Virus record (IMG/VR): IMGVR_UViG_3300006917_000097
Span: 1-30,589 of that record
From: a virus
Length of the DNA: 30,589 bases
Strand: one strand, 5' to 3'
Shown: piece after piece, positions 5,150 to 27,432 of the stretch
Layout: the number at the start of each line of letters is the position of its first letter
Position numbering within the stretch: the stretch's first letter is position 1
Notes under the pieces: generated by a model
The model's database searches: none
Seen by the model: only the letters and a program-made list of their open reading frames with translations
Told to the model about the DNA's origin: nothing
Position numbers and translations under genes: made by a program

Positions 5150-5154
5150 CGCGC

Positions 5155-11449: not shown

Positions 11450-11513
11450 CCCCCAATCGTAAACACATCCCCCGGCTCGCCCACAAAATAGACAGAACAC
11501 GCGACTCCGTCGA

Positions 11514-11555
11514 GCCGCGGCGAGCACCCCCAGATTGGGTGCTGCCGCGGCTTTT
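11514..11555 (+). terminator. intrinsic terminator between protease/RHH genes and the capsid gene
   Basis: The left arm at 11514-11529 and right arm at 11537-11551 form a 15-bp G+C-rich stem with one bulged G and a 7-base loop, followed directly by TTTT. It lies in the 130-base gap between the RHH-like gene and the capsid start. It would limit readthrough from the packaging/sugar block, or trim mRNA so that capsid message is stable. I could not identify a convincing promoter between it and the capsid ATG. Confidence 0.8.
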
Positions 11556-11579
11556 GTCGTGTTTGGGAGAGCACAAGAC

Positions 11580-13417: not shown

Positions 13418-14218
13418 ATGGCCGGCACGATTACTGAAACCGCCCAGTCGTACGGGCACATCCGAAAGCTGGTGTTCGCCTGCGTAGGCGACGCCAGCGA
13501 CGGCACGTTCCCGCGGACGGCTGTCTCGACGAAGTTTTCGGGACGGCTGCTGAAGCTGGTAACGAATCCTGGCGGGCAGACGTCGGCGTCGTCCTCGACG
13601 TCGGCGTCTGTGTCTCCGAGTTCGAGCGCCAGCTCAAGCACGTCGGCCTCGGTGAGTCCGAGCGCGAGCACGTCGCCGAGCGGCAGCACGTCGCCCTCGG
13701 CGTCGATTAGTCCGTCCGCGTCAGCCTCGATCTCGCCGTCGTCGTCGCTCTCTCCGAGCGCGTCGGCGTCGTTCTCGCCATCCTCGTCGCTGTCGCCGAG
13801 CGCGTCCATCTCGCCCAGCGCCAGCGTGAGCGCATCACGGTCGCCAAGTGCGTCCGTGTCGCCGTCTGCGTCGATCTCGCCGAGTGCGAGTGCGTCGCGG
13901 TCGGCGTCGGCCTCGGTGAGCCCGAGCGCGAGCACGTCACCGTCGTCGTCCATTTCGCCGTCAACCTCGGCGTCTCCGACGAGCGCCGCGCCGACGGACA
14001 ACTACGACGTGCGGCTCGAGCATCTCGGCTATGACCTGCTCGAAGGGCTGGGCGCGAATCGGGACGCGTTGCAGTGCGAGCACGCGGTGCTGCGCTACGC
14101 CAACACGTCGCTCCATCCCGTCGTGCATGAGAGCGACAGCCTGGTGCTGGTGATCGACAACGCGTTCCAGCCGTCGTCGCAGATCAGCGTCGAACTGTAT
14201 TACGCCGTCGGTTACTAG
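13418..14218 (+). CDS. virion protein with central Ser/Pro-repeat linker
   Basis: The 266-residue product has three parts. Residues 1-54 are a beta-rich N-terminus ([23 protein letters not shown]). Residues 55-191 are almost purely Ser with Ala, Pro, Ile, Val and Thr, in an S-x-S-x-S-P-S pattern. A 75-residue C-terminal domain follows ([21 protein letters not shown] and LVLVIDNAF...VELYYAVGY). A short SD-poor gap separates it from the upstream gene. Position among head and connector genes suggests a head-surface or neck component, with the tract as a long flexible arm. The two end domains have no recognised family. Confidence 0.75.
13580..13990 (+). repeat. Ser/Pro low-complexity coding repeat, copy 1
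   Basis: Roughly 137 codons alternate Ser with small residues and Pro, using TCG, AGC, TCC, TCT and TCA in turn, so units are similar but not identical. The DNA period is 6 bases with longer 12-18-base units such as TCGCCGAGCGCGTC. The same motif recurs in four other genes of the window. Confidence 0.9.
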
Positions 14219-14227
14219 GGGGGATAG

Positions 14228-14821
14228 GTGGCCCTGAGTCTTGTGTCCGGCCCCACGTCGGAGCCGGTGCGTCTGGATGACGTCAAACGGCACGTGCGCG
14301 TGTCGGATGACGTCACCGACGAAGACACGCTCATCGGCGACCTTATCTCGACGGCCGTCGAATACGTCGAGAACTTCATCCATCGGCGGCTGCTCTCGCA
14401 GACGTGGGAGCTGACGCTGGACGGCTTCCCGCCGTGCATTGACCTACCGTTCCCGCCCGTGTCGTCGGTGACGTCGATCTCCTACGTCGACACGGCCGGA
14501 GATACGCAGACGCTGGCATCGACGGCCTATACCACGTTCCTGCCGACCGGCCCGTATGCGCCGGTCGCGCGGGTTTTCCCGGCCTACGGCGTGCAGTGGC
14601 CGTCCACGCGCGACGTGCCTGGCGCGGTAACGGTGCGCTTCGTGTGCGGCTACGGGGTCCACGAGAACAGCGTGCCGTGGTCGATCAAGACCGCGATCAC
14701 GCTGATGGTGCAGCACTGGTACGACGTTGGCCGGCAGCCGGTGGTGATTGGCGCCGGGAATACGGTTACGTCTGTCCCGAAGACGGTCGACGATCTGCTC
14801 TGGCCGTATAAGGCGTTCTGA
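14228..14821 (+). CDS. head-tail connector, gp6-like
   Basis: The 197-residue product begins at GTG 14228, just after a G-rich SD (GGGGGGAT). The N-terminal VSGPTSEPVRLDDVKRHVRV, then EDTLIGDLISTAVEYVENFIHRRLLSQTWELTL, is the classic helical start of the Phage_gp6-like connector family (PF05135). Members include HK97 gp6 and SPP1 gp15. PVSSVTSISYVDTAGDTQTL and ITLMVQHWYDVGRQPV complete the family pattern. The protein would form the ring under the portal. Its TGA overlaps the next ATG (TGATG). Confidence 0.9.
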   Translation: MALSLVSGPTSEPVRLDDVKRHVRVSDDVTDEDTLIGDLISTAVEYVENFIHRRLLSQTWELTLDGFPPCIDLPFPPVSSVTSISYVDTAGDTQTLASTAYTTFLPTGPYAPVARVFPAYGVQWPSTRDVPGAVTVRFVCGYGVHENSVPWSIKTAITLMVQHWYDVGRQPVVIGAGNTVTSVPKTVDDLLWPYKAF

Positions 14822-15189
14822 TGATCAGCCCCATCGGATCACTGCGCGAGTGGGTGTCCATCCTGAAGCGGTCGACGACGTCTGACACGCAGGGCGGGCG
14901 CGCGGTGTCGTGGGTGGACTTGGTGACGGACAGCACGACGACGTATTCGCGCTTCCCGGCCGCGGTGACGCCGCAGGGTGGCTCTGAGCGGTTGCAGGCG
15001 TCGACGGCTATCGGTGCGGATCAGGCGTATCGCGTAGAGATGCGCTACCGCGCCGATGTGGCGCCCACGATGCGCGTCATCTGGACGCCCTTCAAGAGCG
15101 CGAGCGCCAAGACGTTGGAAGTGCGCGCGGTGCAGGCCAAGGGCGGGGCGCGTGACGCCATCGTGCTCGACTGCAGCGAGGTGATCTGA
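14821..15189 (+). CDS. head closure / head-tail joining protein
   Basis: The 122-residue, beta-rich product starts IGSLREWVSILKRSTTSDTQGGRAVSW, a pattern typical of Phage_H_T_join (PF05521; SPP1 gp16 type). The pattern has LR..V.I......D..G....W. A later YRVEMRYRADVAPTMRVIW segment matches the family's strand-rich core (Y.V.mRy......R..w). It would close the head-connector channel. It sits between the gp6-like connector and a tail terminator, as expected, sharing its first and last bases with neighbouring stop codons. Confidence 0.87.
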   Translation: MISPIGSLREWVSILKRSTTSDTQGGRAVSWVDLVTDSTTTYSRFPAAVTPQGGSERLQASTAIGADQAYRVEMRYRADVAPTMRVIWTPFKSASAKTLEVRAVQAKGGARDAIVLDCSEVI

Positions 15190-15608
15190 TGGCGGATTCC
15201 CTCGCACTGTCGCCGGTCTCCGCGGCGGTCTATGGGCGGCTGAACGTGGCGTCGCTGACGGCGCTGGCGACGGGCGGGATTTACGACGGCGTGCCGCAAG
15301 GCGTGACGTTCCCGTTCGTGCTCTACGAGGTGCAGGAGCGTGACGTGCGCGGGTTTGGGACGAGCGGACTGCCAGAGGTCGGCATCCGTGTCCACGTCTA
15401 CAGCACCTACGAGGGCATGAAGTCGGCGCAGGCGATTCTGGCGCGGGCGATTGAACTGCTGAAGGACCAGGCGCTGACGGTGAGCGGCTACAGCATGTGC
15501 GGGCATGTGTTCTACGACGACACCGTGACGCTGCCGAACGAAGTCGTCAATGGCGTGGCGTGTCACGAACTAGTCGCGAACTTCCGAGCCTACGTGGAGG
15601 AAGCGTGA
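15189..15608 (+). CDS. tail terminator / tail completion protein (DUF3168-like)
   Basis: The 139-residue product has ALSPVSAAVYGRLNVASLTALATGGIYDGVPQG followed by FPFVLYEVQERD. The next stretch, GIRVHVYSTYEGMKSAQAILARAIELL, leads into a final HELVANFRAYVEE strand. This follows the DUF3168 (gp11/gpU-like) layout of a small alpha/beta protein capping the tail tube. Location directly after the joining protein and before tail tube genes agrees. The ATG shares its A with the preceding TGA. Confidence 0.85.
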   Translation: MADSLALSPVSAAVYGRLNVASLTALATGGIYDGVPQGVTFPFVLYEVQERDVRGFGTSGLPEVGIRVHVYSTYEGMKSAQAILARAIELLKDQALTVSGYSMCGHVFYDDTVTLPNEVVNGVACHELVANFRAYVEEA

Positions 15609-15784
15609 CGCCTGAGACGGTGCTCGTGGCGCCGGACGGCAAACCGGCGCGTCCGGTGAAGGCGTCTGCGTGTCCGCAGTGCGGGGCGGGACCGGAGCGG
15701 CGTCGGGCGTCAGCTGGATTTGGCACGCCGCATCCGGTGTGCGGGTCGTGCGGCCATGAATGGCTGGATGAGGAGTGGCGCTGA
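15605..15784 (+). CDS. small zinc-ribbon protein
   Basis: GTG 15605 overlaps the previous stop, and the 59-residue product ends in a TGATG shared with the next start. It contains CPQC (about 22-25) and CGSC (about 47-50), an ideal zinc-ribbon spacing, with a GHEWLDEEW tail. No enzymatic residues are visible. It is probably a structural or nucleic acid-binding zinc ribbon. Its exact tiling in the tail operon makes it a real gene despite its size. Confidence 0.7.
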   Translation: MTPETVLVAPDGKPARPVKASACPQCGAGPERRRASAGFGTPHPVCGSCGHEWLDEEWR

Positions 15785-16740
15785 TGGCGGGCAAATTCGG
15801 ATCGGCCTCGGTGCTGTTTTTGGTGGACGGCTACAACCTGCTCGCGGGCAAGTTGTCTGGCCTCGGCTTCAAGCAGGAAGCCCTGCACGAGCCCACCACG
15901 GGCCTCGGGGATAGCACGGAGGCGACGACGCCCACGGGGCTGACCAAGGCCACGCTGACGCAGACGGGTGGCTTCTTCGACACGACCATCGGCGGGAACC
16001 ATACGGCGCTCTCGACGCTGCCGAGCGGCCCGCAGTCGACGCCGCGGATCGTGTGCTTCGGCTGGGCTGGGCAGACCGCAGGGAATCCCTTCACGGGCCT
16101 CGAGGGCGCCTACCAGCAGACCTACGACGTGCAGGGGCAGGTGGGCAAGCTCACCAAGGCGAATGCGTCCTACGTGGTCTCCGGGCAGGTCGACCAGGGC
16201 ATCGTGATCCAGCCGCTCGCCGCGTTTACCGGGGACTGGTCGAGCGCGTCGGTCGACAACGGCGCAGCCACGACGAATGGCGGCGTGGGGTATCTGCAGG
16301 TCACGTCGAGCTTCGGCGCGTTCACCGGGAAGATTCAACACTCGGCCAACAACAGCGTATGGGCCGACCTGCTCACGTTTACGACGGTGACGGCGTCGCC
16401 GGTCGCTTACCGCGGCACGGTCGCGGCTGGGACGACGGTCAACCGCTATCTGCGGTTTGTGGGCACCGTGTGGGGCGACATCTCGCCAAGCGCGTCGATC
16501 AGCCCGTCGAGTTCCACGAGCATCAGCCCGTCAAGTTCTGTGAGCCCATCGATCTCGGCCAGCGCGTCGGCTTCGGCGACGGCATCTCAGAGCGCAAGCG
16601 CGTCGGTATCGCCATCGTCGAGCCGGTCGCCATCGTCTTCGTTGAGCCCGTCGATCTCTGCCTCGGCGTCGCCGTCTCCGACGACGGCCGCGGGCGCGCA
16701 GGGCTCGGCGACGGTGTTCTGCGGGTTTGCGCGTGGGTAA
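15784..16740 (+). CDS. tail-tube-like protein with C-terminal Ser/Pro arm
   Basis: The 318-residue product starts MAGKFGSASV. Residues 1-230 are beta-rich, with ATTPTGLTKATLTQTGGFFDTT and YDVQGQVGKLTKANASYVVSG as in major tail proteins. A second part (about 155-230, VGYLQVTSSFGAFTGKIQHSANNSVW) resembles an Ig/carbohydrate-binding-like addition. Residues 233-299 are the Ser/Pro repeat, followed by a short GSATVFCGFARG end. The N-terminus and the PTGLTK...DTT block are shared with the 16937 gene, so the two are paralogues. One is presumably the main tube subunit and this one a decorated variant. Confidence 0.75.
   Translation: MAGKFGSASVLFLVDGYNLLAGKLSGLGFKQEALHEPTTGLGDSTEATTPTGLTKATLTQTGGFFDTTIGGNHTALSTLPSGPQSTPRIVCFGWAGQTAGNPFTGLEGAYQQTYDVQGQVGKLTKANASYVVSGQVDQGIVIQPLAAFTGDWSSASVDNGAATTNGGVGYLQVTSSFGAFTGKIQHSANNSVWADLLTFTTVTASPVAYRGTVAAGTTVNRYLRFVGTVWGDISPSASISPSSSTSISPSSSVSPSISASASASATASQSASASVSPSSSRSPSSSLSPSISASASPSPTTAAGAQGSATVFCGFARG
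16480..16683 (+). repeat. Ser/Pro low-complexity coding repeat, copy 2
   Basis: About 67 codons encode SPSxS units at the C-terminal end of the tail-tube-like protein, in the same codon phase and with the same mixed Ser codons as copy 1. Confidence 0.9.
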
Positions 16741-16933
16741 TGACGTCCTCGCCAGGGTGCTGAGTGACGCCATGCAAGCGGAAGCGAAGGCGCGCGAGTA
16801 CTGGCAGGCGACGACGGATGTAGCGGAGCGGGACTCGGCGTTGATTGTCGGTAGGCACGCGACGGCGTTGCGGAAGTCGGTCGAGGGGTGGATCGCACGA
16901 CGCGCCCTGCGGGCGCAGTTGGAGAAGGGGTAA
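16733..16933 (+). CDS. small helical protein, unknown
   Basis: GTG 16733 overlaps the end of the preceding gene by 8 bases and gives 66 residues; a TTG six bases earlier is also possible. The product is helical and Ala/Arg/Glu-rich (LARVLSDAMQAEAKAREYW, ALIVGRHATALRKSVEGWIARRALRAQLEKG), with no motif I recognise. It sits between the two tail-tube-like genes, 3 bases before the second. A small tail assembly factor is possible. Confidence 0.55.
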   Translation: MGNDVLARVLSDAMQAEAKAREYWQATTDVAERDSALIVGRHATALRKSVEGWIARRALRAQLEKG

Positions 16934-16936
16934 ACG

Positions 16937-17359
16937 ATGGCCGGAAAGTACGGAAGCTCGTCAATCACGATTTCCTACGACGACGGTCCTGGCGGCACGC
17001 CGCGGGCCATCACGTCGTTCGTCCTGCAGATGGGCGGCGTGAAGCTGACCAGCAACATGCAGAACGCGACGGCCTACGGCGACACGGTCGAGAAGATGCT
17101 CCCCACGGGCATGACGAAGATCGACCAGATCACGCTGTCGGGCCTGTGGGACACGACGGCCACGACCGGCCCGCATGTCGTGTTCATCGCGCCGGACGAC
17201 GGCCCGCAGGACGCGACGCGCACGCTGGCGATCGCGTTCGGCGACTCGAAGACGTGGACGTCGGAGGGCTACCTCGTGAGCTACGAGGTCACGGGCAAGG
17301 TCGGCAATCTGACCGAGTTCACGGCCGTGCTGCAGCAGAACTCTGGCGCCTGGTCGTAA
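16937..17359 (+). CDS. major tail tube-like protein
   Basis: The 140-residue product starts MAGKYGSSSITISYDDGPGG and continues with DTVEKMLPTGMTKIDQITLSGLWDTT. A beta-rich core follows (FGDSKTWTSEGYLVSYEVTGKVGNLTEFTAVLQQNSGAW). Short beta-sandwich proteins with a late TG.V...T.F.A.L elements are typical of siphophage tail tube subunits. It precedes the tail assembly chaperone and tape measure, the normal position of the tube gene. Start ATG follows GGAGAAGGGG closely. Shared motifs with the 15784 product indicate duplication. Confidence 0.75.
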   Translation: MAGKYGSSSITISYDDGPGGTPRAITSFVLQMGGVKLTSNMQNATAYGDTVEKMLPTGMTKIDQITLSGLWDTTATTGPHVVFIAPDDGPQDATRTLAIAFGDSKTWTSEGYLVSYEVTGKVGNLTEFTAVLQQNSGAWS

Positions 17360-17408
17360 CGGTCGGTCTCGCGCGGGCCGCTGGAGCCGCCCGCCCGAAA
17401 GGGGGCAG

Positions 17409-17819
17409 ATGAGCATTTTCGCATCGAAAACGCAACAGGTCGTTGCCGTCGAAGGCGGGACCATCACGATCCGCAAGCTGACCGGGCGCGAGGTCGAGCA
17501 GGCACAGGCCGAGCATTTGCGGAGCCTGGTTGGCGGTCGGTCGGCGCGTGGTTGGGCGCCGCGATTCCAGCGTCTGGTTGCCACAGGCAAGGCGACGGAG
17601 GCCGACGCGGAGGCGTTCATCGCCGACCCGCTCAACGGCTACGACCGGGCGACGGTCCTGCGGGCGGGCGTGGTGGGGTGGAGTTTCGAGCCGGCAGTGT
17701 CGGCCGAGATGATCGAGGACCTCGACGACGACACGAGCGAGCGGCTGGCCGTGGCGATCATGCGGCTCACGAAGCCCGCGACGGTCGCCGAGGTGGAGGG
17801 CGAGAGAAAAAACGGCTGA
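17409..17819 (+). CDS. tail assembly chaperone, short (gpG-like) form
   Basis: A 136-residue product starts at ATG 17409 behind a GGGGG-rich SD. It begins with a beta-hairpin (QVVAVEGGTITIRKLTGREVEQAQ) and continues with helices. It ends in VEGERKNG at a TGA four bases beyond a slippery heptamer. Position before the gp10-like and tape measure genes and the frameshift arrangement match the gpG/gpGT chaperones that coat the tape measure during tail assembly. Sequence similarity is not needed for this call, since these proteins diverge strongly. Confidence 0.8.
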   Translation: MSIFASKTQQVVAVEGGTITIRKLTGREVEQAQAEHLRSLVGGRSARGWAPRFQRLVATGKATEADAEAFIADPLNGYDRATVLRAGVVGWSFEPAVSAEMIEDLDDDTSERLAVAIMRLTKPATVAEVEGERKNG

Positions 17820-18103
17820 GGGGGCTGCACCTGGCGTTACAGGGTGACGGTCCCCAGCCCTTCGAGCACTTCATCGGGCGGTTGTGTGAGGAGTTCCACT
17901 GCTTGCCGTCGGAGGCGTGGGCGGAATGGCAGCGGGTGCCCTTCGGGATGCTGGAACGGATCGTCGAATACCGCGGCTACGCACACGCGAAAGCCGTCTG
18001 GGATGCGACGGACGACCAGAAGCGGTTGCAGGGCGGGTGGTTCGACATGGTGCGGGAGATCGAGTTCGACCTCGCACACGAGGAGATGGGCCTTGGCGGA
18101 TGA
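17409..18103 (+). CDS. tail assembly chaperone, frameshifted (gpGT-like) form
   Basis: A -1 shift at 17807-17813 fuses the 17409 frame to the next frame, which is open to TGA 18101. The joined product would be 231 residues. The added part (RLRGLHLALQ, then EEFHCLPSEAWAEW and FDMVREIEFDLAHEE) is clearly coding but has no ATG or GTG start near its beginning. It can therefore be read only by frameshifting or from a poor TTG. The T extension in lambda recruits tail tube protein to the tape measure, and the same role is expected here. Confidence 0.8.
17807..17860 (+). promoter_or_regulatory. programmed -1 frameshift site
   Basis: The heptamer A AAA AAC at 17807-17813 is in the correct phase for tandem slippage by one base. 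The zero-frame stop follows at 17817-17819. Eight bases downstream a two-part hairpin can form: GGGCTG (17822-17827) pairs with CAGCCC (17855-17860), and nested CACCTG pairs with a bulged CAGGGTG. This combines slippery site, spacer and structure as in other dsDNA phage gpG-gpGT genes. The stem was found by eye, without energy calculation. Confidence 0.85.
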
Positions 18104-18527
18104 CTTGACCATCGAGATGGACGCGGCCGAGGTTATCGCCGCGCTGTCACGCTTGGGCGACGCCGCGCAGCCCTACATCAACCGCGCGGCCGAGGAAACG
18201 TCCCGCGCCATCGTGACGGAAGCGCGTGCGCGGCTGTCGCGGCAGCTGAGCCCAGAGGCCACCGGGCGCACCGTGCAGTCGATTACGTCGCGTCCGGCCT
18301 ACGACCGCAACGGCTTTGTAGTCGTCGCCGAGCGTGAGCCGATGCCGAATCTTCCGCTCTGGCTCGAAAAGGGCACCAAGAAGGGCAACCGCAAGGGCCA
18401 CGGCGGCGGGAACATGGCCCCTCGGCCGTTCTTCTATTCCTCCGCGCTGCTTGAGGAAGGCGCGCACCAGCGACGCGTTGAAGACGCGGTGCGCGAGGCG
18501 CTGATCGACCAGGGGCTGGGGGACTAG
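18093..18527 (+). CDS. HK97 gp10-like tail/neck protein
   Basis: TTG 18093 lies 7 bases after GAGGAG and overlaps the preceding stop by 11 bases, giving 144 residues; ATG 18117 is the alternative. The N-terminal helical half (VIAALSRLGDAAQPYINRAAEETSRAIVTEAR) and a central LPLWLEKGTKK lead to a MAPRPFFYSSALLEEG end. This follows the HK97-gp10-like (PF04883) pattern of ...LE.GT.....APRPFlrpA. Such proteins usually sit earlier, beside the tail terminator; here the gene is after the chaperone. A neck/tail completion role is inferred. Confidence 0.75.
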   Translation: MADDLTIEMDAAEVIAALSRLGDAAQPYINRAAEETSRAIVTEARARLSRQLSPEATGRTVQSITSRPAYDRNGFVVVAEREPMPNLPLWLEKGTKKGNRKGHGGGNMAPRPFFYSSALLEEGAHQRRVEDAVREALIDQGLGD

Positions 18528-20594
18528 ATGCCGGCCCCTCAACTCGTCGTCCGCGTCGCGGCGACCCTCGACGAACTTAAGAAGAACCTCGCCGAAGGCG
18601 CCAACGTCATCGACACGACGCGTGCGGCTCTGACGCGCATGGCGTCGAGCTACGACGGATCGAAGGTCATCCAGCAGGCGAACGCAACGGTCGCGGCCAT
18701 CCAGCAGGTCGGCGGCGTGACGAACCTCACGGCGGATGAGCAGCGGCGGGCCAATCAGGTCATCGAGCAGGCCATCGAGAAATATCGACTGTTGGGCAAG
18801 GAGGCTCCGGACGGTCTGCGCCAAATGGCCGAGGCGACCGCGCAGGCTGAGCGGAAAGTCGGGGTGCTTGAGTCGACGTTCGCGCGGTTTGCGACGGCGT
18901 TTGCTGCCGGCGCTCTGATTGACCGTGGGGTGACGGCGCTGATGTCGTTCGGTCGGCAGGCGTTCGAGACGGCTGACCGCATCGTCGGCATGAGCGAGAA
19001 AACCGGGCTCTCGATTGAGTCGTTGCAGCGGATGAATTTCGTGGCCGGGCAGACCGGCACGACGCTTGACGATTTCAGCCGCGCCGTATTCCAGTTGGGC
19101 GCCCGCCTGGCTGGAGATGACAAGTCTGTCGCTGGCGCAGTGGGCAAGCTGGGGCTCTCGCTTGAGTCGCTTCGGGCGATGCGCCCCGAGGAACAGTTCG
19201 ACACGATCACGCGGGCGTTGTCGTTGATGGAGAGTCCACAGGAGCGCAATCGTGTTGCGCTTGACATGTTTGGCAAGTCGGTCGCCGAGATTATCCCTGC
19301 CATTGTCGAGAAGTACGACGAGTTGCGGGACAGCGCGACGGTCGCCAGCGACGCGCAGATTCGCTCTGTTGAGGCGGCCGGAGACAAGTGGGACGAGTTG
19401 AAAAACCGTGTCCTCGTCTCGTCGATGAAGGTTATCGCCGGCTTTGTCGATATGGCAGACGCCGCGCGAGACAACGAAGCATCCATGCAGCACTGGGTCG
19501 AGACAGGGCAGCTATTGCCCGTCGTGCTGCCGCAGATTGCATCGACGGCGCGAGACGCCGCAAGCGGCTTGCGCGACCTGACGATGTCGGCCGACGAGTT
19601 GGCCGCGGTGCAGGCGGACCTGGCCGCAAACTCGAACATCTACGTCTCGCGTCTACAAAACGCACAGGACGAAGTCGACGCGCTCACGGCGGACCAGCTG
19701 ATCCAGATTCGTGCCGCGCGTCAGCTGGGGGCCAGCACCGAGGAATTGGCGCGAGCGTTCCACCTGACGTCCGATGCCGCGCGTCTGCTGCAGTCGCGCC
19801 TCTCGGAGGACGCAGACGCGGCCAAGCAGGCCGCAGACTTCATGGCGATGACGCGAGACGAGGCCGCCAAGCTCGCCAACGTGGTGCAGGGGGCAGGTCT
19901 TCCGGCGACCGATGACTGGGCCGAGTCGATGGACGTGGCAGCGCAGTCATCCGAGGCGCTCCGCACCGACCTCAAGTTCACGGCCGAGACGGTGGCGCAC
20001 GTCGGAGAAGAAGCCAAGAAAGCGGCCGAGAAGATTCGCACACTGAGCGGAGAGATGCTCACGGCCGACGAGATTGCCAAGCGCCGAGAACAGGGCGGGC
20101 AGTTTTCGCTGGCCGAGTTGACGCCAGAGCAGTACGAGGCGGCCGGCGGCGATAAGCGCATCGCCGAGATCGAGGCGACCTATGCGCTGTATCCGGGGCG
20201 CAAGTCTGGCGGCAGCGGGCCGACCGGCTTGGGCACGAACGACGCACAGGGCTACGCCGCCATGCTGGCCGAGCAGCGGCTCTACGCGCAGCTCCTGGCG
20301 GCCCGGAAGCGGATCAAGGGCTACGCCGATGGCGTGATGAATGCGCCCGGTGGATGGGCGTGGGTCGGCGAGCGTGGCCCCGAACTGATGCGCGTCCCGC
20401 AAGGCGCCGACATCGTGCCGAATCACGCACTGGGAAGCGTTGGGGCGACAGTCACGATTGCGCCCGGCGCGTTCGTGTTCAATTACCCGATGATGAATGA
20501 CCCGAACGCAAAAGAGCAGTTTGCGGCATTCATCTTCGACGTGTTCATGCGGCAGCTGCGCGCGTCTGGCGTGCGGGTGCCGACGAGCGCCTGA
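18528..20594 (+). CDS. tape measure protein
   Basis: The 688-residue protein starts at the base after the previous stop. It is long and helical, Ala/Glu/Gln-rich, with a hydrophobic stretch near 120-150 (FARFATAFAAGALIDRGVTALMSFG). A following MSEKTGLSIESLQRMNFVAGQTG block is typical of TMP N-terminal regions. The C-terminus has the common NAPGGWAWVGERGPELMRVPQG...VPNHAL ending. At about 1.5 angstroms per residue, family practice would predict a tail of about 100 nm. This protein sets tail length and contacts the chaperones encoded just before it. Confidence 0.92.
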   Translation: MPAPQLVVRVAATLDELKKNLAEGANVIDTTRAALTRMASSYDGSKVIQQANATVAAIQQVGGVTNLTADEQRRANQVIEQAIEKYRLLGKEAPDGLRQMAEATAQAERKVGVLESTFARFATAFAAGALIDRGVTALMSFGRQAFETADRIVGMSEKTGLSIESLQRMNFVAGQTGTTLDDFSRAVFQLGARLAGDDKSVAGAVGKLGLSLESLRAMRPEEQFDTITRALSLMESPQERNRVALDMFGKSVAEIIPAIVEKYDELRDSATVASDAQIRSVEAAGDKWDELKNRVLVSSMKVIAGFVDMADAARDNEASMQHWVETGQLLPVVLPQIASTARDAASGLRDLTMSADELAAVQADLAANSNIYVSRLQNAQDEVDALTADQLIQIRAARQLGASTEELARAFHLTSDAARLLQSRLSEDADAAKQAADFMAMTRDEAAKLANVVQGAGLPATDDWAESMDVAAQSSEALRTDLKFTAETVAHVGEEAKKAAEKIRTLSGEMLTADEIAKRREQGGQFSLAELTPEQYEAAGGDKRIAEIEATYALYPGRKSGGSGPTGLGTNDAQGYAAMLAEQRLYAQLLAARKRIKGYADGVMNAPGGWAWVGERGPELMRVPQGADIVPNHALGSVGATVTIAPGAFVFNYPMMNDPNAKEQFAAFIFDVFMRQLRASGVRVPTSA

Positions 20595-20597
20595 CGC

Positions 20598-23234
20598 ATG
20601 GCGATCTCACCATCGGCCAGCGTGTCGCCGAGCAGCAGCCGGTCGCCGTCTGCGTCGCGTTCGCCGTCCGTCTCAGTGTCGTCGTCGATCAGCCCGTCCA
20701 CTAGCGCGTCGGCGTCGGCCTCGCCAAGCGTCAGCCCGTCGTCATCGCTCAGCCCGTCCGCGAGCACATCGGCCAGCCGGTCGCCGTCCTCGTCGCTGTC
20801 GCCGTCCTCGTCGCTGTCGCCGAGTGCGTCGACAAGCCTCTCGCCGTCGTCAAGCCGGTCCCCGTCTGCGTCGACGTCACCATCGTCGTCGCTGTCTCCG
20901 AGCGCAAGTGCGTCTACGAGCACGTCGCCGTCGTCATCGCTCTCTCCGAGCACGTCAAGATCGCCGTCTGTCTCGACATCATCAAGCGTCTCGCCGTCGG
21001 CGTCACTGTCCCCTGGGGACTTCACGTCGTGCGATGTCTACGTGCAGATCGCCGGAGTGGAGCGCGCCACTGGACGCTCCGACGAGAGTGCGAGCATCCT
21101 GCAGGGGACGCTGAACATCGTGGAGTCGCTGACGCTGTCGACGCCGAATCGCTGCTCGTTTGTGGCGATGGGGTTTGCGCCGTCGGCCGGTGATCGCGTC
21201 GTGGTCACGCTCGGTGGCGAAGGCAACCCGGAGCGCCTGTTCTACGGGTCGATCGTGTCGGTATCGGCCGGCTACGTGGGCACGCCGTCGAATCGCACGT
21301 ACGAGTGCGTCTGCCTGGATGACACGTACCTGCTTGACGCGCGGATCGTCAACAAACGATTCACGAGCACATCCGCGACGGCCATCGCCATCGACCTCGT
21401 GGCCGGGGCGGTGGGATTTACGGCCGAGCACGTACAGTCCGGCTTGCCGACCGTCGACGAGATCACGTTCACGAACGAAAGCATCTCGGTAGCGTTGCTG
21501 CGCCTCGCCAAGCGGATCGGTGGGTACGTCTACCTTGACCAGCATCGAGACATCCACCTGTATACGTCGGAGTCGATAGGCGCCGAGTTGACGCCGACGG
21601 CGCTGACATCCGCGCATGAGTCGCTCGAGCGGTTCGAGTTTGGACGCGACTGGACAGATGTCGCGACGCGCGTCTATTCCGAGGGTGGAGGATCGCAGGC
21701 GAGCGAGGATACCGCCGCAGGGGCGACTACGTTGGCCGTCGATGATACGGCGTGGTACTCCGCGTCTGGCGGCCTCGTGCGATGCGGCGCGCAACGCATC
21801 AGCTATGCCGGCATCGGGTCGAGCGCGGCCGAGAACGTCGGCGCGTGGAATGGCTTCAACGTTGCGGCGTCTGTGGTCGACATTCAGAGCGTGGCGTGGG
21901 CGCCAAGTCTGGGACTCTTCATGGCGCCTAAGTTGTCTGGCGTCTATACGTCCAGCGACGGGACTACGTGGACGTCGAACAGCGCGCCAACGTCGTTTTG
22001 GTATTCGGTGGCGTGGTCTGAATCATTGGGCCTCGGCGTAATGGGCGGCACGACCGGAACGTCAAAGTTCACGACGGCTACATCGTCGGACGGAGTGACG
22101 TGGACCGAATCGGCGTCGACTGATGGCGGGTTGGTCACTTGCGTGCGCTGGTTCGACAATGTGTCGCTGTTCGTCGCCACAGGCAACCGAAACGTGGGCG
22201 CCACGCAATATGCAACCATCGAGACGTCGCCAGACGGCGTCACGTGGACGCGTCGGTATACGCCAGGGTCTACCTCGACGTCCGTGTTTTCGGTGGCGTG
22301 GTCTGAATCACTCGGGCTATTCCTCGCGGTGGGCGGAACTGGAAACTTTCAGACGTCACCGGACGCAATCACGTGGACAGACCACACGAAAGCCGGCTTG
22401 TATAACTCGGTCGCGTGGTCTCCTACGGCTGAAGCGTTTGTCATTTGCGGCAACAGCGGCATCCTCAGATCGACAGATGGCACCACATACTCGACCGTGA
22501 CAAACCCGGTGACGGGGCAGGCGTGGCGCCGCGTGGACTGGATCGACGAGCTTGGCGTGTTCCTGATGTGGGCGGGGGCCGTCGCCATCGCTCAGAACCT
22601 TGCCATCAGCGCGGACGGCCTAACGTGGACGACCTACGCCGCCGTGTCGACGCTGGCGGTCGGAGGTACCGGAGGGTCGAGTGCGGTCGCATACAGCGCG
22701 GCCCTCGGCAAGACCATCGTGGTCGGGTCGACGTCTGGGTCGTTCCAGATGGCCGTGAGCGCCGCCACGAGCACCGGGCAGCTAACCGGCATCCCGGCCA
22801 GCGGAGACGGTGCCATCCGCTACGCCATCAGCGCAGGCGACGATGTCAACGTCGTCGCGCAGGTCGACGACGTTGCCGCGCAGACGGCGTTCACGGCGGC
22901 CTTCGGCACGGACGGCGTCAAGGAAGAGACGATTCAGGACGGTCGACTGAGCCTCACCGAAGCGCAGGCGCGCGGCGAGGCATATCTCGCGCTGCGGTCG
23001 AGCCCGAGGACGTCGATCCGTTATCGCACACGCGATAAAAACACGCGGGCTGGCCGCACCGTATCGGCCACGCTCTCTGAGTTCGGCCTGAGCGCAGAGA
23101 CGTTCCGTATCCAGAAAGTCACGATCTCCAATTTCCAGCCGTCGCTGTTCCCGTATTTCGACGCGGAGGCGAGCGACGAACTGTTTTCGTTTGAAGACAT
23201 GGTCCGTCAGTTCCGGTCGGGAGAGACGGTGTAA
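20598..23234 (+). CDS. baseplate hub/tail-tip protein with N-terminal Ser/Pro arm and inserted propeller
   Basis: The 878-residue product has an N-terminal Ser/Pro repeat (4-139). A hub-like region follows (141-407: VVVTLGGEGNPERLFYGSIVSVSAG, AIAIDLVAGAVGF, GGYVYLDQHRDIHLYTSE) and ends in GGLVRCGAQRISYAGI. Next come about seven repeats (about 425-722) of an SVAWS..LGLF.....S.DG.TWT unit, as in Asp-box/Kelch-type beta-propellers. The hub resumes at 725 (TGQLTGIPASGDGAIRYAISAGDDVNVVAQVDD) to the C-terminus. Position after the tape measure fits a distal-tail or gp27-like hub. The propeller is a strong candidate for receptor or glycan binding. Confidence 0.8.
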   Translation: MAISPSASVSPSSSRSPSASRSPSVSVSSSISPSTSASASASPSVSPSSSLSPSASTSASRSPSSSLSPSSSLSPSASTSLSPSSSRSPSASTSPSSSLSPSASASTSTSPSSSLSPSTSRSPSVSTSSSVSPSASLSPGDFTSCDVYVQIAGVERATGRSDESASILQGTLNIVESLTLSTPNRCSFVAMGFAPSAGDRVVVTLGGEGNPERLFYGSIVSVSAGYVGTPSNRTYECVCLDDTYLLDARIVNKRFTSTSATAIAIDLVAGAVGFTAEHVQSGLPTVDEITFTNESISVALLRLAKRIGGYVYLDQHRDIHLYTSESIGAELTPTALTSAHESLERFEFGRDWTDVATRVYSEGGGSQASEDTAAGATTLAVDDTAWYSASGGLVRCGAQRISYAGIGSSAAENVGAWNGFNVAASVVDIQSVAWAPSLGLFMAPKLSGVYTSSDGTTWTSNSAPTSFWYSVAWSESLGLGVMGGTTGTSKFTTATSSDGVTWTESASTDGGLVTCVRWFDNVSLFVATGNRNVGATQYATIETSPDGVTWTRRYTPGSTSTSVFSVAWSESLGLFLAVGGTGNFQTSPDAITWTDHTKAGLYNSVAWSPTAEAFVICGNSGILRSTDGTTYSTVTNPVTGQAWRRVDWIDELGVFLMWAGAVAIAQNLAISADGLTWTTYAAVSTLAVGGTGGSSAVAYSAALGKTIVVGSTSGSFQMAVSAATSTGQLTGIPASGDGAIRYAISAGDDVNVVAQVDDVAAQTAFTAAFGTDGVKEETIQDGRLSLTEAQARGEAYLALRSSPRTSIRYRTRDKNTRAGRTVSATLSEFGLSAETFRIQKVTISNFQPSLFPYFDAEASDELFSFEDMVRQFRSGETV
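20607..21014 (+). repeat. Ser/Pro low-complexity coding repeat, copy 3
   Basis: About 136 codons at the N-terminus of the baseplate protein, with frequent SPSSSLSPS and SPSASxS units. It is the only copy that starts within four residues of an initiator Met. The phase and mixed codons match the other copies. Confidence 0.9.
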
Positions 23235-23248
23235 ATGGCAGCACGTCA

Positions 23249-23428
23249 ATGGTGAGGCGCATGGTCGAGCAGCTGTGGATGGTCGGGGCAAGCGTGGTCG
23301 CGGTCGTCGTGTGGCTGGTGCGCCTTGAAGGGCGCGTCAACGCGACCGAGGCGTTTCATCGGCAGATCGCGGACGACATTCGCTACTTGCGCGAGCGGAT
23401 CGATAGCGCGATGAGTCGGCGAGTCTGA
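23249..23428 (+). CDS. small membrane-anchored coiled-coil protein
   Basis: ATG 23249 gives 59 residues. An N-terminal transmembrane helix (about 9-25, LWMVGASVVAVVVWLVR) is followed by a charged heptad-like helix (EGRVNATEAFHRQIADDIRYLRERIDSAMSRR). The topology recalls small phage lysis accessory or anchor proteins, such as XhlA-like or spanin-like parts, but no family signature is certain. It lies between baseplate and DUF5675 genes, 2 bases before the next ATG. Alternative start ATG 23261 would shorten it by four residues. Confidence 0.6.
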   Translation: MVRRMVEQLWMVGASVVAVVVWLVRLEGRVNATEAFHRQIADDIRYLRERIDSAMSRRV

Positions 23429-23430
23429 CG

Positions 23431-23874
23431 ATGGTCGACTGGCTGCTCGTGCGCGCACGCTCGGCTGGGCCTCGGACGTGGGGCACGCTCTACGACCGCG
23501 CCGACGCGATGCGCGTGCTGTGTATCACGCTCGAAGACGCCATCCGCGAGCGGCCTGGCGTGCCGGTGAGCGCGTGGAAGGTCTACGGGCAGACGGCGAT
23601 CCCGGCCGGGCGCTATGCGTTGCGGCTGTTCTGGTGGGCCAAGCACGGCGTCTGGGTGCCGCACGTCGAGGGCGTGCCCGGCTATACCGGCATCCTGATG
23701 CACGGCGGCGTGACCGAGGCCGACACGCTCGGCTGCCCGCTGGTGGGCTTTGCGCGTGAGGGCGACCGACTGACGGGAGGGCGCCTGGCGCGGGCGCTTG
23801 TCGCGGACAGGCTCAGGGCGGCGGGCGGCTCTGGCTGGCTCGAAGTGGTCAATCCGGCCGTGGTGGCCGCGTGA
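23431..23874 (+). CDS. DUF5675-family protein
   Basis: The 147-residue product shows the DUF5675 layout: WGTLYD, VLCITLEDAIRERPG, YGQTAIPAGRYALRLFWWAK, and the diagnostic VEGVPGYTGILMHGGVTEADTLGCPLVGF. In that last block the H-G-(x)n-D-T-x-G-C pattern may form an active or metal site. The family is common in phages and near lysis genes. The activity is not established, and some annotators suspect cell-wall action. No other recognisable endolysin is present in the window, so this is the leading lysin-like candidate by context only. Confidence 0.8.
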   Translation: MVDWLLVRARSAGPRTWGTLYDRADAMRVLCITLEDAIRERPGVPVSAWKVYGQTAIPAGRYALRLFWWAKHGVWVPHVEGVPGYTGILMHGGVTEADTLGCPLVGFAREGDRLTGGRLARALVADRLRAAGGSGWLEVVNPAVVAA

Positions 23875-24080
23875 TGGTCGCGGGCTGGCACACGGTCGAG
23901 GACGAGGCGCCGCGGCGGGCCCCGGTGCGGATGCTGCGACACGAGGGAACGCCGCAGGAATACATCGAGGTCGCCCTCGACGTGACGCTCGTGCCTGGTC
24001 GCTGGGCCGGACGTGGGCTAGTGATTCGCGCCTCGCAGGTCACGGGCGACGTGACGGCGGCGATTGAGCGGATCGAATAG
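23871..24080 (+). CDS. small hypothetical protein
   Basis: GTG 23871 overlaps the DUF5675 stop, and ATG 23874 is an equally good start. The 69-residue product (AGWHTVEDEAPRRAPVRML, VALDVTLVPGRWAGRGLVIRASQVTGDVTAAIERIE) is beta-strand-like with a short terminal helix. No family is recognised. The tight overlap suggests co-translation with its neighbour. Confidence 0.55.
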   Translation: MMVAGWHTVEDEAPRRAPVRMLRHEGTPQEYIEVALDVTLVPGRWAGRGLVIRASQVTGDVTAAIERIE

Positions 24081-24092
24081 GAGGACGCACCG

Positions 24093-24680
24093 ATGACGCT
24101 ACAGCAGATCAAGGACATCACGGCACGCATCGACGCCAGCTATCCCGGCCTTCGGCTGCGGGACCGCTACGCCTGGACGCATCGGGTCGCGTACGCCTGC
24201 TACAAGGTCGATCACACGGTCGGCCAGAAGCGGGCCAGTCTGGGGCGTCCCGTGAGCGACGACACCATCGCCTGGGCCGTGTCGCCGGTCGGCGGGCAGG
24301 CGGGCACGGCCGTGCAGGTCGCATTCAACGCGATCGACCTGCTCGACGGCGGCAGCGGCAACATTCACTTCGACGAGAACCCCGGCATCACCGACCAGTT
24401 CTTCGTCATTCCGACGCCCATCGACATCGACGGCGAGGGCGCCACTTCGGCCCCGCCGTCTGGGTATCCGGGCGATGCGACGTGGGACGCCGTGGGGCTG
24501 CAGCTCGTCTCGGACTACGCGCGGGCGGGTCGGCCCATTGACGCCGGCACGGGGCGCTGGTTCGGCCGCGTCATCTGGGACGCGACGGCTGGCGACGGGT
24601 CGAAGGTGCTCACCGTGCCCGAGAGCATCGCCAAGCATCGCATCGAGTGGTGCGCCGCGCTCGGCGTGCCGGTGGTCTAG
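24093..24680 (+). CDS. hypothetical protein, lysis-region
   Basis: The 195-residue product starts at ATG 24093, behind AGGAGGACG. The sequence is conserved-looking (LQQIKDITARIDASYPGLRLRDRYAWTHRVAYACY at the start, GGQAGTAVQVAFNAIDLLDGGSGNIHFDENPGITDQFFV in the middle, GTGRWFGRVIWDATAGDGSKVL near the end). There is no signal peptide or membrane helix. His, Asp and Glu residues cluster in the middle section (HFDENPGITD), but no hydrolase motif is certain. I do not assign a function; a tail-associated or lysis accessory protein is possible by position. Confidence 0.65.
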   Translation: MTLQQIKDITARIDASYPGLRLRDRYAWTHRVAYACYKVDHTVGQKRASLGRPVSDDTIAWAVSPVGGQAGTAVQVAFNAIDLLDGGSGNIHFDENPGITDQFFVIPTPIDIDGEGATSAPPSGYPGDATWDAVGLQLVSDYARAGRPIDAGTGRWFGRVIWDATAGDGSKVLTVPESIAKHRIEWCAALGVPVV

Positions 24681-24682
24681 CC

Positions 24683-24811
24683 ATGTGGCCCGACCCCGAC
24701 GAGATGGAGGCCATGACGCGCGACCTCGCGGCGGCGGCGGCCGTGTCGGTCATGGCGGCGGCCCTGATGGCGCTGATGGTCATCGGCGTCGCGTATCTGC
24801 TACTGCACTAG
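24683..24811 (+). CDS. 42-residue membrane protein
   Basis: ATG 24683 follows the preceding stop by 2 bases. The product is an acidic head (PDPDEMEAMTRDL) and one long Ala/Met/Val helix (about 16-41) ending LLLH. It is typical of phage single-helix membrane proteins. Its TAG stop is part of the AGGAGG that serves the next gene. Pinholin or antiholin-like roles are possible but unsupported. Confidence 0.55.
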   Translation: MWPDPDEMEAMTRDLAAAAAVSVMAAALMALMVIGVAYLLLH

Positions 24812-24819
24812 GAGGCGAG

Positions 24820-25023
24820 ATGAAGCAGTTTGTAACGGACTTGTGGACCGACCCCGCGAAGTTCGCGGCGGCGGTGCGTGCGCTGGTGTTTGCCGTGGCG
24901 ACCCTCATGCAACAGGGCGCCATCCCTGGCGCCGGCACGGCGCTGGGCTGGTACGTGACGCTGGCGGCGCAGGCGCTGGCGCTCGGTGTGGCGGCGGGAC
25001 AGAAAAACGAGGTTAAGCGATGA
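24820..25023 (+). CDS. small membrane protein, holin candidate
   Basis: ATG 24820 is 5 bases after TAGGAGGCGAG. The 67-residue product has two hydrophobic segments (about 16-32, AAAVRALVFAVATLMQ, and 42-60, LGWYVTLAAQALALGVAAG) and a charged C-terminus (KNEVKR), the arrangement of class II holins. The TGA overlaps the next ATG (ATGA). It is one of several tandem small membrane genes, and the holin assignment among them is uncertain. Confidence 0.6.
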   Translation: MKQFVTDLWTDPAKFAAAVRALVFAVATLMQQGAIPGAGTALGWYVTLAAQALALGVAAGQKNEVKR

Positions 25024-25199
25024 AGAAGAACATCTTCAAGTCGAAAACGTTCTGGCTCAACGTGCTGAGCGTCGGCGCGGCCGTGACGGGCACGCTGCCG
25101 CCGACCGCGGCGACGGCGGCGGTCATCGGCTGTCTTAACATTGGGCTGCGGGCGATGACCACCGAGCCGGTATCGGTGCTCCCCGCAAAGGAGGAGTAG
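25020..25199 (+). CDS. small phage membrane protein, holin-like
   Basis: The ATGA overlap with the preceding gene gives a 59-residue product starting MKKNIFKSKTFWLNVLSVGA. SKTFWLN, a hydrophobic middle, CLNIGLRAMTTEPVSV and an acidic end form a pattern common in small phage proteins near lysis genes (KSKTFW....N..LR..TT.P). Such proteins are often labelled holins or left unnamed. Helices are short (about 10-24 and 28-46). A pairing with the 24820 product as holin/antiholin is one possibility. Confidence 0.65.
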   Translation: MKKNIFKSKTFWLNVLSVGAAVTGTLPPTAATAAVIGCLNIGLRAMTTEPVSVLPAKEE

Positions 25200-25204
25200 T
25201 GACC

Positions 25205-25672
25205 ATGCGTCGTTTCATCTTTGTGGGTGTGCTCGTGGCGCTGTTGGGTGCGTCGGTGCGTCCGGCGTGGGCCGAGGCTGGCGAGGCGGTGACGCTGTCG
25301 CCGGTGTTCGACATCAATCTCGGGCGCACGGCGCGCGAGGGCACGGTGCAGACCGCGCAGGGCTTCGTGCCGGCGCCGTCCGCGCCTGACATGGCGGTCA
25401 AGGTCGACATCCGCCTCGACATGGGCAACGCCGAGTTGCACAACACGAACTTCTCGTGCGACTTCGCGCTCTGGGTCTATGACGCGGACAGCGCCACGCG
25501 CAAGCGCGTCGTCTCGGCCTCGTGGGTGGGGCATCCCGACAACGACACGCTGCCTGGATTCACGGTAGACGTGACCGAGTATCACGGGCTGCCGATCCTC
25601 GTCGAGTTGAGCATCCCGAACAAGTTCAAGGTGGGCGTGGTCGCCAACCTCTACGAAGAGAACAACCCGTAA
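25205..25672 (+). CDS. exported protein with Sec signal peptide
   Basis: ATG 25205 lies 10 bases after GGAGG; GTG 25199, overlapping the upstream stop, is an alternative. The 155-residue product has a clear signal peptide (MRRFIFVGVLVALLGASVRP, cleavage likely after AWA, residue 23). A beta-rich mature domain of about 130 residues follows, without a lipobox cysteine or membrane anchor. Mature residues include FSCDFALWVYDADS and FTVDVTEYHGLPILVELSIPNKFKVGVVANLYEE. An exported protein in a late operon could be a lysis partner, a superinfection-exclusion factor or a lysogenic conversion protein. I recognise no family. Confidence 0.75.
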   Translation: MRRFIFVGVLVALLGASVRPAWAEAGEAVTLSPVFDINLGRTAREGTVQTAQGFVPAPSAPDMAVKVDIRLDMGNAELHNTNFSCDFALWVYDADSATRKRVVSASWVGHPDNDTLPGFTVDVTEYHGLPILVELSIPNKFKVGVVANLYEENNP

Positions 25673-25693
25673 CACGCGACCCGCGAGACGACG

Positions 25694-27019
25694 ATGGCGG
25701 CCACATTCGTCCAAGAAAAGGGCATCCAGCAGTTTTCGGGTGTCGGCTCGGGCGGCCTCACGTTCACGTCGAACGTGACGGCGGGCAGCGCCATCGTCGT
25801 CTTCGCGCACGTCTCGTCCACGTCGCGCACGCTCAGTGTTAGTGACGACAAGGGCAACAGCTACTCGACGATTCTCGGGCCGATTGATCAGAGCACGGCG
25901 GCGCGGTCGTACTGCTGGGTCTGTCTGTCTGCGGCGTCTGGGTCAACGACGGTCACGGTCACGCTCGACAGCGGCACGACCGCGTTCTGTATGGCGATCG
26001 CCGAGGTCAGCGGTCATGACACGGCGGCCGTTCATGCGTCCACGTCGCAAGTGCTCGGCTCGCTGGAGACGCACAAGTCTGGCGCGGCACTCACGCCGAC
26101 GAGCAACGGCATCGGCCTTGCGTGGTACGGGAACAACGGCGCCTATGGGTTCTCGTCCTACGACAGCGGCTGGACGCGGTGGAACACCTCAACGGCCACG
26201 ACGGTCGCCGCTGCTCGCGGCATCTACACGACCCCTGGGGCTGGCGCCGTCACGTCCGGCGTGACCTACACGCCCGGGCTCAACGTAACGAGCAACGAGC
26301 AGGGCGTCATGCTGCACATCATCCTGGCCGATGCGGCGGCCGGGATTAGTGCAAGCGCGTCCATTTCGCCGTCCTCGTCGACCTCGCCATCGGCCTCGGT
26401 GTCGCCATCCGCGTCGACAAGCGCGTCGGTGTCGCCATCGGCCTCGGTGTCGCCGAGTTTTTCGGCGTCGGCATCGGTCAGCCCGTCGTCGTCGCTGAGC
26501 CCATCTGCCAGCGCCTCGGCCTCGGTGTCCCCGTCGTCGTCACTGTCGCCATCGGTGTCGGCCTCGGCGTCAGTGTCGCCGAGCGCGTCCGTGTCACCGT
26601 CGACGTCGGCATCGGCATCCGTCTCGCCGAGCGCATCGCTGTCGCCGAGCAGTTCGCCAAGCGCAGGGGGACTAAGCGCCTCGGCCTCGATCTCTCCGAG
26701 CGCCAGTGCATCGGCCTCTCTGTCGCCATCGTCGTCGGCCTCGGCCTCGCGTTCTCCGTCAGCGTCGGCGTCCGCCAGCGTGTCGCCGTCGAGCAGCCGC
26801 AGCCCGTCGACAAGCGCCTCCGCGTCAGTGTCGCCGTCGTCAAGCCGTTCGCCGTCGGTCAGCGCCTCGGCCTCGGTGTCGCCGTCGGCGGCGCCGCCCG
26901 ACTTTGTGTGTGCCCATATGACGGCCCGCTCGGGCCGCGTGTCGTTTTCGTCGCGTTCTTCTACGGTGGCGCTGTCGGGTCGATCCGGGCGTGCCGCCTT
27001 TACCGGCCGGGTGTGCTGA
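25694..27019 (+). CDS. tail fibre-like beta-sandwich protein with long Ser/Pro arm
   Basis: The 441-residue product starts with a beta-rich domain (1-215; [52 protein letters not shown]). It has the look of concanavalin/jelly-roll modules widespread in phage tail and fibre proteins. Residues 219-400 are the Ser/Pro repeat. A 41-residue basic tail follows ([31 protein letters not shown]), itself with a short SGR-type repetition. Location at the distal end of the structural block suggests a tail appendage or capsid fibre. The last base of the stop overlaps the next ATG. Confidence 0.7.
26348..26893 (+). repeat. Ser/Pro low-complexity coding repeat, copy 4
   Basis: About 182 codons make this the longest copy, with recurring [15 protein letters not shown]-type units. 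A short interruption ([12 protein letters not shown]) divides it into two blocks near 26675, as if two expansions were joined. Confidence 0.9.
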
Positions 27020-27432
27020 TGGATACCTTTAACGAACGGTCCACCGTGCTCGTCACCGTGGCGTGGTACGACGCCGACGATGCGCCCGTCACGCCAACCA
27101 CGGCCGCCTATCGCGTCGACGATGTGCGGTCGGGCGTGAACATCGTCCCGTCAACGGCGATCACTGGTCTGTCGACGACCAACGAGATCGAGATCACGCC
27201 GTCTCAAAACACGGTGCTCGACTATCGTCGGGAATTCGAGCAGCACGCTGTGACCGTCACGTTCACGTTCGGCGGCGGCGGGTCGCGCCAGGGCACGGCG
27301 CGATACGTCTTCGCGGTGAACAATCTGCCGAAGGTGGACAGCCCTGATGTGAGCGCGTCGGCCAGTGTGTCGCCGTCGTCAAGCCTGAGCCCGTCCGTGT
27401 CGGCGTCCTCAAGCGCGAGCCCGTCCGCATGA
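27019..27432 (+). CDS. beta-rich virion protein with short Ser/Pro tail
   Basis: ATG 27019 shares its A with the upstream TGA and gives 137 residues. The first 108 residues look like an Ig-like or adaptor domain (STVLVTVAWYDADDAPVTPTTAAYRVDD, HAVTVTFTFGGGG, GTARYVFAVNNLP), a pattern seen in small phage structural proteins. Residues 111-137 form a Ser/Pro tail cut off by the stop. It may partner with the 25694 product. No specific family is claimed. Confidence 0.65.
   Translation: MDTFNERSTVLVTVAWYDADDAPVTPTTAAYRVDDVRSGVNIVPSTAITGLSTTNEIEITPSQNTVLDYRREFEQHAVTVTFTFGGGGSRQGTARYVFAVNNLPKVDSPDVSASASVSPSSSLSPSVSASSSASPSA
27349..27429 (+). repeat. Ser/Pro low-complexity coding repeat, copy 5
   Basis: About 27 codons ([15 protein letters not shown] type) form the extreme C-terminus of the 27019 product; it is the shortest copy in the window. 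Confidence 0.85.

Follow-up and report, generated by a model that had tools for sequence, protein, structure and literature searches.

What could explain the presence of the same kind of serine- and proline-rich sequence in five different genes of one uncultured phage? The question is raised by a linear, 30,589-bp stretch of viral DNA (hereafter the window), which constitutes the full IMG/VR record IMGVR_UViG_3300006917_000097, has a GC content of 66%, and is probably a fragment. An earlier note on this DNA had taken the five tracts for flexible, hydroxylated arms that had spread as a mobile or gene-converting module. We consider it likely that the tracts are arms of virion proteins that accept O-glycans in the manner of mucins, glycosylated by an enzyme module of the phage's own. 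The particle probably wears a self-made sugar coat, because Ser-Pro tracts are nearly always accompanied by a sugar-attaching enzyme that resembles the initiators of mucin glycosylation.

The S-x-S-x-S-P tracts reported in the five genes are all present, within a few codons of where the earlier note had placed them, and are 31–186 codons long (lengths in amino acids, aa):

13574..13984 (+), tract A (137 aa), within gene 13418-14218
16474..16686 (+), tract B (71 aa), close to the C-terminal end of 15775-16740, the major tail protein
20598..21020 (+), tract C (141 aa), forming the N-terminal arm of tail protein 20598-23234, whose gene comes after that of the tape measure
26339..26896 (+), tract D (186 aa, with a single phase slip), within gene 25694-27019
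27337..27429 (+), tract E (31 aa), at the C-terminal end of the product of gene 27019-27432

Serine occupies alternate positions, with parity counts of 66/6 in tract A, 32/4 in B, 68/9 in C, and 13/2 in E. The spacing between prolines is nearly always an even number of residues, mostly 6, 8 or 10, which matches the 6-base periodicity noticed earlier. When residues were shuffled within each protein 500 times, the alternating tract was never longer than 29 aa, compared with the 31–186 aa observed.

Most of the five tract proteins are evidently particle parts. The description of all five genes as virion type holds for the major tail protein (PHROG 9522, E 1.1e-18), for protein 20598-23234, which has a weak baseplate-hub match (PHROG 4930), and for gene 13418-14218, located just 3′ of the capsid gene; genes 25694-27019 and 27019-27432 are assigned to the virion by position only. 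Gene 13418-14218 encodes a small beta-sandwich protein, for which Foldseek returned generic beta-sandwich matches only, and its tractless relatives are about 120 aa long. Tract A is inserted between TNPGG and APTDNYD, as read from the loop of more distant tractless relatives, and in the predicted structure of one such relative, also a beta-sandwich, the insertion site falls in a loop between strands. The tail-tube-type proteins 15775-16740 and 16937-17359 (both +) are related and in tandem, the tract being present in the longer one only, and the same pair is found in contigs L012, L276 and L278. The fifth gene starts at the ATG at 27019, which overlaps the stop of the preceding gene, and not at 26908. 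Its homologues occur in other loci bearing the glycosyltransferase (GT) module described below, with or without a short Ser-Pro tail; a peptide-pattern search for homologues of this gene found none.

In the same operon as the tract genes lies a 6-kb glycan module (4154-10302), two of whose enzymes resemble polypeptide N-acetylgalactosamine (GalNAc) transferases:

4154..5149 (+), GT2-type, polypeptide-GalNAc-transferase-like glycosyltransferase (PF00535; phmmer match to Toxoplasma GalNAc-T3, E 9e-6)
5155..5829 (+), methyltransferase (Methyltransf_24); most GT-module loci hold a homologue
5838..6470 (+), conserved module protein U1, with homologues in 33 loci
6467..7174 (+), conserved module protein U2, with homologues in 139 loci and no family match
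7143..8162 (+), UDP-galactopyranose mutase, which makes UDP-galactofuranose (PF03275, E 3e-57; TIGR00031 over cut-off)
8377..10302 (+), two-domain glycosyltransferase BI, the marker enzyme, 641 residues, with a polypeptide-GalNAc-transferase-like N-half and a C-half related to 6467-7174

The enzyme 4154-5149 and the N-half of the marker enzyme are paralogues (28% identity, E 2e-39), and U2 is related to its C-half (25% identity, E 2e-15). Family and structure searches with U1 gave no match, and U1 is probably a glycan enzyme. The methyltransferase may possibly carry out sugar O-methylation; its PHROG name, “DNA methyltransferase,” was not accepted, as the match spans only part of a long profile. 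Among GT-module loci, the mutase is restricted to the window virus (with its second contig, L274), L276 and L278, which suggests galactofuranose in the glycans of the window clade only.

The association between tracts and enzyme was examined in both directions. In the forward test, IMG/VR records of 20–140 kb were sorted by tract before any enzyme search, giving 30 records with a long heterogeneous SxSPS tract and 50 without one from the same DNA-pattern scans. PF00535 was found over cut-off in 27 of the 30 tract records versus 6 of the 50 controls (P = 2e-12, Fisher's exact test), and in 22 of 25 after removal of five records seen earlier; two of the 30 (G024, G036) encode identical copies of the enzyme and represent one phage or two very close ones. 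The recurring enzyme in tract records, of about 550–600 aa, belongs to the family of 8377-10302 (40–53% identical), and this family is absent from the non-tract loci compared. In the reverse test, IMG/VR was searched by enzyme alignment alone, and 64 of the 80 loci obtained carry, within 10 kb, a tract no shorter than 40 aa (55 of 71 without nine already known records). Among the 16 misses, two (L331, L351) have Ser-Pro tracts just outside these limits, and several are short contigs. No tract was found in the 14 loci holding tractless relatives of the tract-A gene. As protein queries the tracts performed poorly: tblastn against phage records gave no match and a protein query in IMG/VR confirmed only one locus, both probably due to low-complexity handling; the DNA patterns succeeded instead.

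The module adjoins or sits between structural genes, in the same operon, in phages of different capsid families (PF05065 in the window, PHROG 1357 in L342, PHROG 267 in L344). Because module phages have different capsid proteins, the association is not the accident of one lineage. The phage nature of three example records is shown by capsid and terminase PHROGs; the PF04860 portal (4 of 35) and the PF03237 terminase over cut-off (7 of 35) are too narrow to serve as group-wide phage markers.

Polypeptide GalNAc-transferases are the initiators of mucin O-glycosylation, and by sequence and predicted fold the marker enzyme matches this family (GT27) beyond a generic GT2 likeness. With the family profile A1, built from 18 members, the best solved structures are polypeptide GalNAc-transferases (1xhb, 1e-13), above all GT2 enzymes. 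The single sequences 8377-10302 and 4154-5149 also match polypeptide GalNAc-transferases best, whereas two GT2 enzymes from control phages match other glycosyltransferases or almost nothing. For the AlphaFold model of 8377-10302 (pLDDT 84), all of the top 50 Foldseek matches are polypeptide GalNAc-transferases; the two-domain query keeps the TM-scores modest (about 0.4 by target). The DAH motif at residues 88-90 and H258 (in AHMFR) are invariant in 18 homologues and align with DAHC and GHVFR of GALNT1; we take D88, H90 and H258 to be the equivalents of the metal-binding DxH and the HxFR histidine of the animal enzymes. A Pfam scan of 8377-10302 found no ricin-type lectin domain, the C-half being an unrelated domain shared with 6467-7174.

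Comparison among relatives shows which features of the tracts are kept, and it counts in favor of the acceptor explanation. Tracts occur at the same sites in the same two genes (A and B) in L012 (about 65–72% DNA identity), L276 and L278, and a shorter tract in the first gene only in L226. Tract length varies from relative to relative, as the earlier note had expected: tract A measures 137 aa in the window, 187 in L012, and 213 in both L276 and L278, and tract B measures 71, 93, 109 and 119 aa, respectively. Between L276 and L278, none of the 104 serines of tract A has changed despite 47 synonymous Ser codon changes, and none of the 24 prolines has changed, versus 16 of the 73 in-between residues. 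In tract B, the changes number 2 of 56 for Ser, 2 of 15 for Pro, and 14 of 32 for in-between residues. Since the aligner prefers Ser-Ser matches, low counts from gapped regions are less reliable; the long stretch of tract A that aligns without gaps is unaffected. The gaps between these two relatives are even numbers of residues. Because synonymous changes accumulate with hardly any residue change at Ser and Pro while the in-between residues drift, selection acts on Ser and Pro and not on the DNA.

The system is not confined to viruses. The marker enzyme led to 49 loci in GTDB genomes, nearly all in bins of Patescibacteria, i.e., candidate phyla radiation (CPR) bacteria (Woese-, Levy-, Davies-, Collier-, Zambryski- and Saccharibacteria, WWE3, and others), and two in Planctomycetota; 28 of the 49 have tracts, of up to 2323 aa in one protein. 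In the complete Woesebacteria chromosome L381, as well as in L379, L392 and L362, ordinary chromosomal genes surround the cluster. These clusters hold the module and a giant Ser-Pro tract protein, with TatC nearby:

L381, 11104-17638
L379, 12090-20489
L392, 303-19692
L362, 3213-15063

On CPR chromosomes, the module is 5′ of the giant tract protein. TatC is close by in 11 cellular loci and in no viral locus, and the giant protein with its module is a candidate surface glycoprotein system. In the tree of the enzyme N-half, the well-supported branches require a minimum of 10 switches from viral to cellular contigs or back; therefore, the module has moved repeatedly, although mis-binned phages may account for some of the cellular contigs. 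The window groups in this tree with L341, L276, L278, and contig L354 of a Planctomycetota bin. A separate observation concerns L330, a 34-kb IMG/VR virus that is nearly the same as L368 of a Patescibacteria bin and has tracts and a tail-protein homologue; it is possibly a CPR phage.

Did the tracts spread within the phage as DNA? As a null model, synonymous codons were permuted tract by tract with the amino acids fixed. The extent to which different tracts of the window share 12- to 30-mers stays within codon-shuffle chance (15-mers, 37 vs. 26 ± 13), and no k-mer of 21 or longer is shared between them; therefore, there is no sign in the window of a recently spread or gene-converted DNA module. 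The window tracts are thus no closer to one another in nucleotide sequence than random Ser/Pro coding sequence, an outcome that the earlier note had itself named as refuting, and recent spread of the mobile module that it proposed has to be given up for the window. Within tract C, there is an excess of shared 18- to 24-mers (P = 0.007) from local tandem duplication, and within tract D a weak excess, so local slippage or duplication occurs. Across the group, 8 of 38 other phages with at least two tract genes have 30-mers common to different genes in excess of the codon-shuffle null, and exchange between genes is therefore real in the group, though invisible in the window. Many such 30-mers beyond the null were seen in L326, L353, L203, L179, L275 and L293. 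Furthermore, the composition of the in-between residues is closer within one phage than between phages of similar GC (median distance 0.22 vs. 0.38; within-record distance 0.25 vs. 0.38 after shuffling; reached in 0 of 300 permutations). This within-phage tract “dialect” could come from gene-to-gene exchange, from shared mutation bias, or from the preference of the phage's own enzyme.

Taken as acceptor arms, the tracts would work as follows. The proteins of module 4154-10302 would attach O-linked glycans to tract serines in the infected cell, before assembly. The initiating step would most likely be performed by 8377-10302 and/or 4154-5149, and the remaining module proteins would extend and decorate the glycan, the mutase contributing galactofuranose and the methyltransferase O-methylation. 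With tracts inserted in loops or at the ends of several head and tail proteins, glycan bristles would stand on the head, tail tube and tail tip, where the coat may serve adhesion, protection, or likeness to a host glycoprotein. The arms foreseen in the earlier note were in the right direction; the likelier meaning of their hydroxyls is that of sugar acceptors, given the dedicated glycosylation module that accompanies the tracts.

Several points weigh against this explanation. We infer the glycosylation itself, as well as the sugar, its place on the tract serines, the presence of all five proteins in the particle, and the function of the coat; neither donor sugar nor acceptor can be read from sequence. 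GT2 and GT27 have the same fold, and the window enzyme is no more than about 16–20% identical to solved GalNAc-transferases. Initiator and extenders are not told apart among the module enzymes. GT2 enzymes also occur in tractless phages (the 6 of 50 above), three tract-bearing records have no GT2 over cut-off, and 14–16 of the 80 GT loci have no tract in the stretch covered. The position-only assignment of the genes of tracts D and E to the virion belongs here as well.

Other explanations can be held against the same observations. A linker needs no retention of serine, yet none of 104 changed while their neighbors drifted; moreover, the tracts go with a single conserved family of two-domain enzymes whichever of the two is taken as the starting point, and the pairing recurs in CPR cells where no phage genes surround it. 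It is accordingly unlikely that the tracts stay unmodified and act as flexible linkers or entropic spacers, while the accompanying glycosyltransferases act on host surface glycans (superinfection block) or on phage DNA, even though disordered linkers typically have Ser alternating with Pro and small residues, some phage glycosyltransferases are known to serve serotype conversion or DNA glucosylation, and the three tract records without GT2 over cut-off would fit. Selfish or mutational spread of low-complexity sequence, with a single DNA module, mobile or gene-converting, copied from gene to gene, is highly improbable: it could account for the dialect common to the tracts of one genome, for the 30-mers in excess of the null in 8 of 38 records, and for the variable tract lengths, but not for the lack of excess sharing in the window, for insertion sites that stay the same across large divergence, or for synonymous saturation while Ser is fixed, and the enzyme association is not predicted by it.

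The possibility that the tracts were copied from, or imitate, a giant surface glycoprotein of the host, for mimicry or shared adhesion, can be put forward only tentatively and is on the doubtful side. CPR bacteria have the same module and a tract protein with up to 2323 tract residues and adjoining TatC, the enzyme tree has the viral and cellular switches mentioned, and contig L368 of a Patescibacteria bin is also listed as virus L330. However, the GC of the window virus is 66%, its nearest cellular sequence (L354) is in a Planctomycetota bin, and some cellular contigs are possibly mis-binned phages. Host imitation is in any case a claim about purpose, which adds to the acceptor-arm explanation and does not replace it.

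The gene order of the window runs terminase, portal, glycan module, S49 protease, HK97-type capsid protein, head-tail connectors, tail proteins, tape measure, tail tip, later genes, and integrase:

10302-11267 (+), S49 protease (PF01343)
11577-12908 (+), HK97-type capsid protein (PF05065)
29538-30587 (−), tyrosine-recombinase-type integrase at the right end (PHROG 1)

The S49 protease and capsid genes (10302..12908) locate the glycan module within the structural operon. The phage may be temperate; a tRNA search of the window, including the sequence beside the integrase, found none. Contig L011 (also L274) is identical to the window over its whole length and is therefore the same virus. Inside the glycan module, 8195-8377 (+) encodes a 60-aa protein matching the Thoeris anti-defence protein Tad2 (PF11195) at 23.0 bits, below the cut-off of 25, and is a possible anti-defence gene.

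A search of open-licence papers found no description of this combination of tract and enzyme. We would give roughly even chances to a broader proposal: a widespread, undescribed prokaryotic system of mucin-type O-glycosylation, in which a GalNAc-transferase-like enzyme is paired with Ser-Pro tracts that serve as its dedicated acceptors, both in unrelated tailed phages (in several virion proteins) and in CPR bacteria (in one giant tract, probably of a surface protein, beside TatC), the phages being coated like the cells they infect. If true, phages and ultra-small CPR bacteria would use a mucin-like system whose initiating enzyme is related to that of animals. Glycosylated virions would become recognizable by a simple sequence signature, glyco-engineering would gain a new source of O-glycosylation enzymes together with repetitive acceptor peptides, and there would be a concrete way into the surface biology of CPR bacteria and their phages, most of which have not been cultured.

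How does this system compare with known ones? The simple (PS)n runs of phages and bacteria are similar to the window tracts in Ser/Pro composition, but in control records (e.g., L051, L077) they are without the S-x-S-x-S-P pattern and mostly without GT2 enzymes. In mycobacteriophages such as Che8, phage glycosyltransferases and glycans on capsid proteins have been described (Freeman et al. 2023, via PMC11256854). The window phage likewise carries glycosyltransferase genes; PMC11256854 names no dedicated acceptor tracts, and no relative of the marker enzyme was found among 50,697 phage records, mycobacteriophages included.

A parallel in genetic arrangement is provided by serine-rich repeat glycoproteins, whose glycosylation enzymes are the GtfA/GtfB pair. 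In these proteins (GspB, Fap1, SRRP) of Gram-positive bacteria, exported by accessory Sec, a long Ser-rich tract is O-glycosylated intracellularly by enzymes of the same cluster (PMC6973325, PMC5207161). The window and CPR clusters also pair a Ser-rich tract protein with glycosyltransferase genes, and the CPR version adjoins a translocase gene. They differ in that the carriers in the window are phage virion proteins, several per genome, the enzymes are GalNAc-transferase-like instead of a GtfA/GtfB pair, and the CPR clusters have TatC and not SecA2/SecY2; in the protein scans of the window, which included no search aimed at them, neither SecA2/SecY2 nor a cell-wall anchor turned up.

With animal mucins and their GT27 enzymes, the window system has in common Ser/Pro-rich disordered acceptor tracts and an enzyme with a DxH motif, a WGxE-like block and an HxFR motif, whose best sequence and fold matches are in GT27. 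It differs in the low identity of the enzyme to its animal counterparts given above, in a second C-terminal domain in place of the ricin-type lectin usual in GT27, in the cytosolic location of the enzyme in the phage-infected cell, and in tracts that are almost without threonine.

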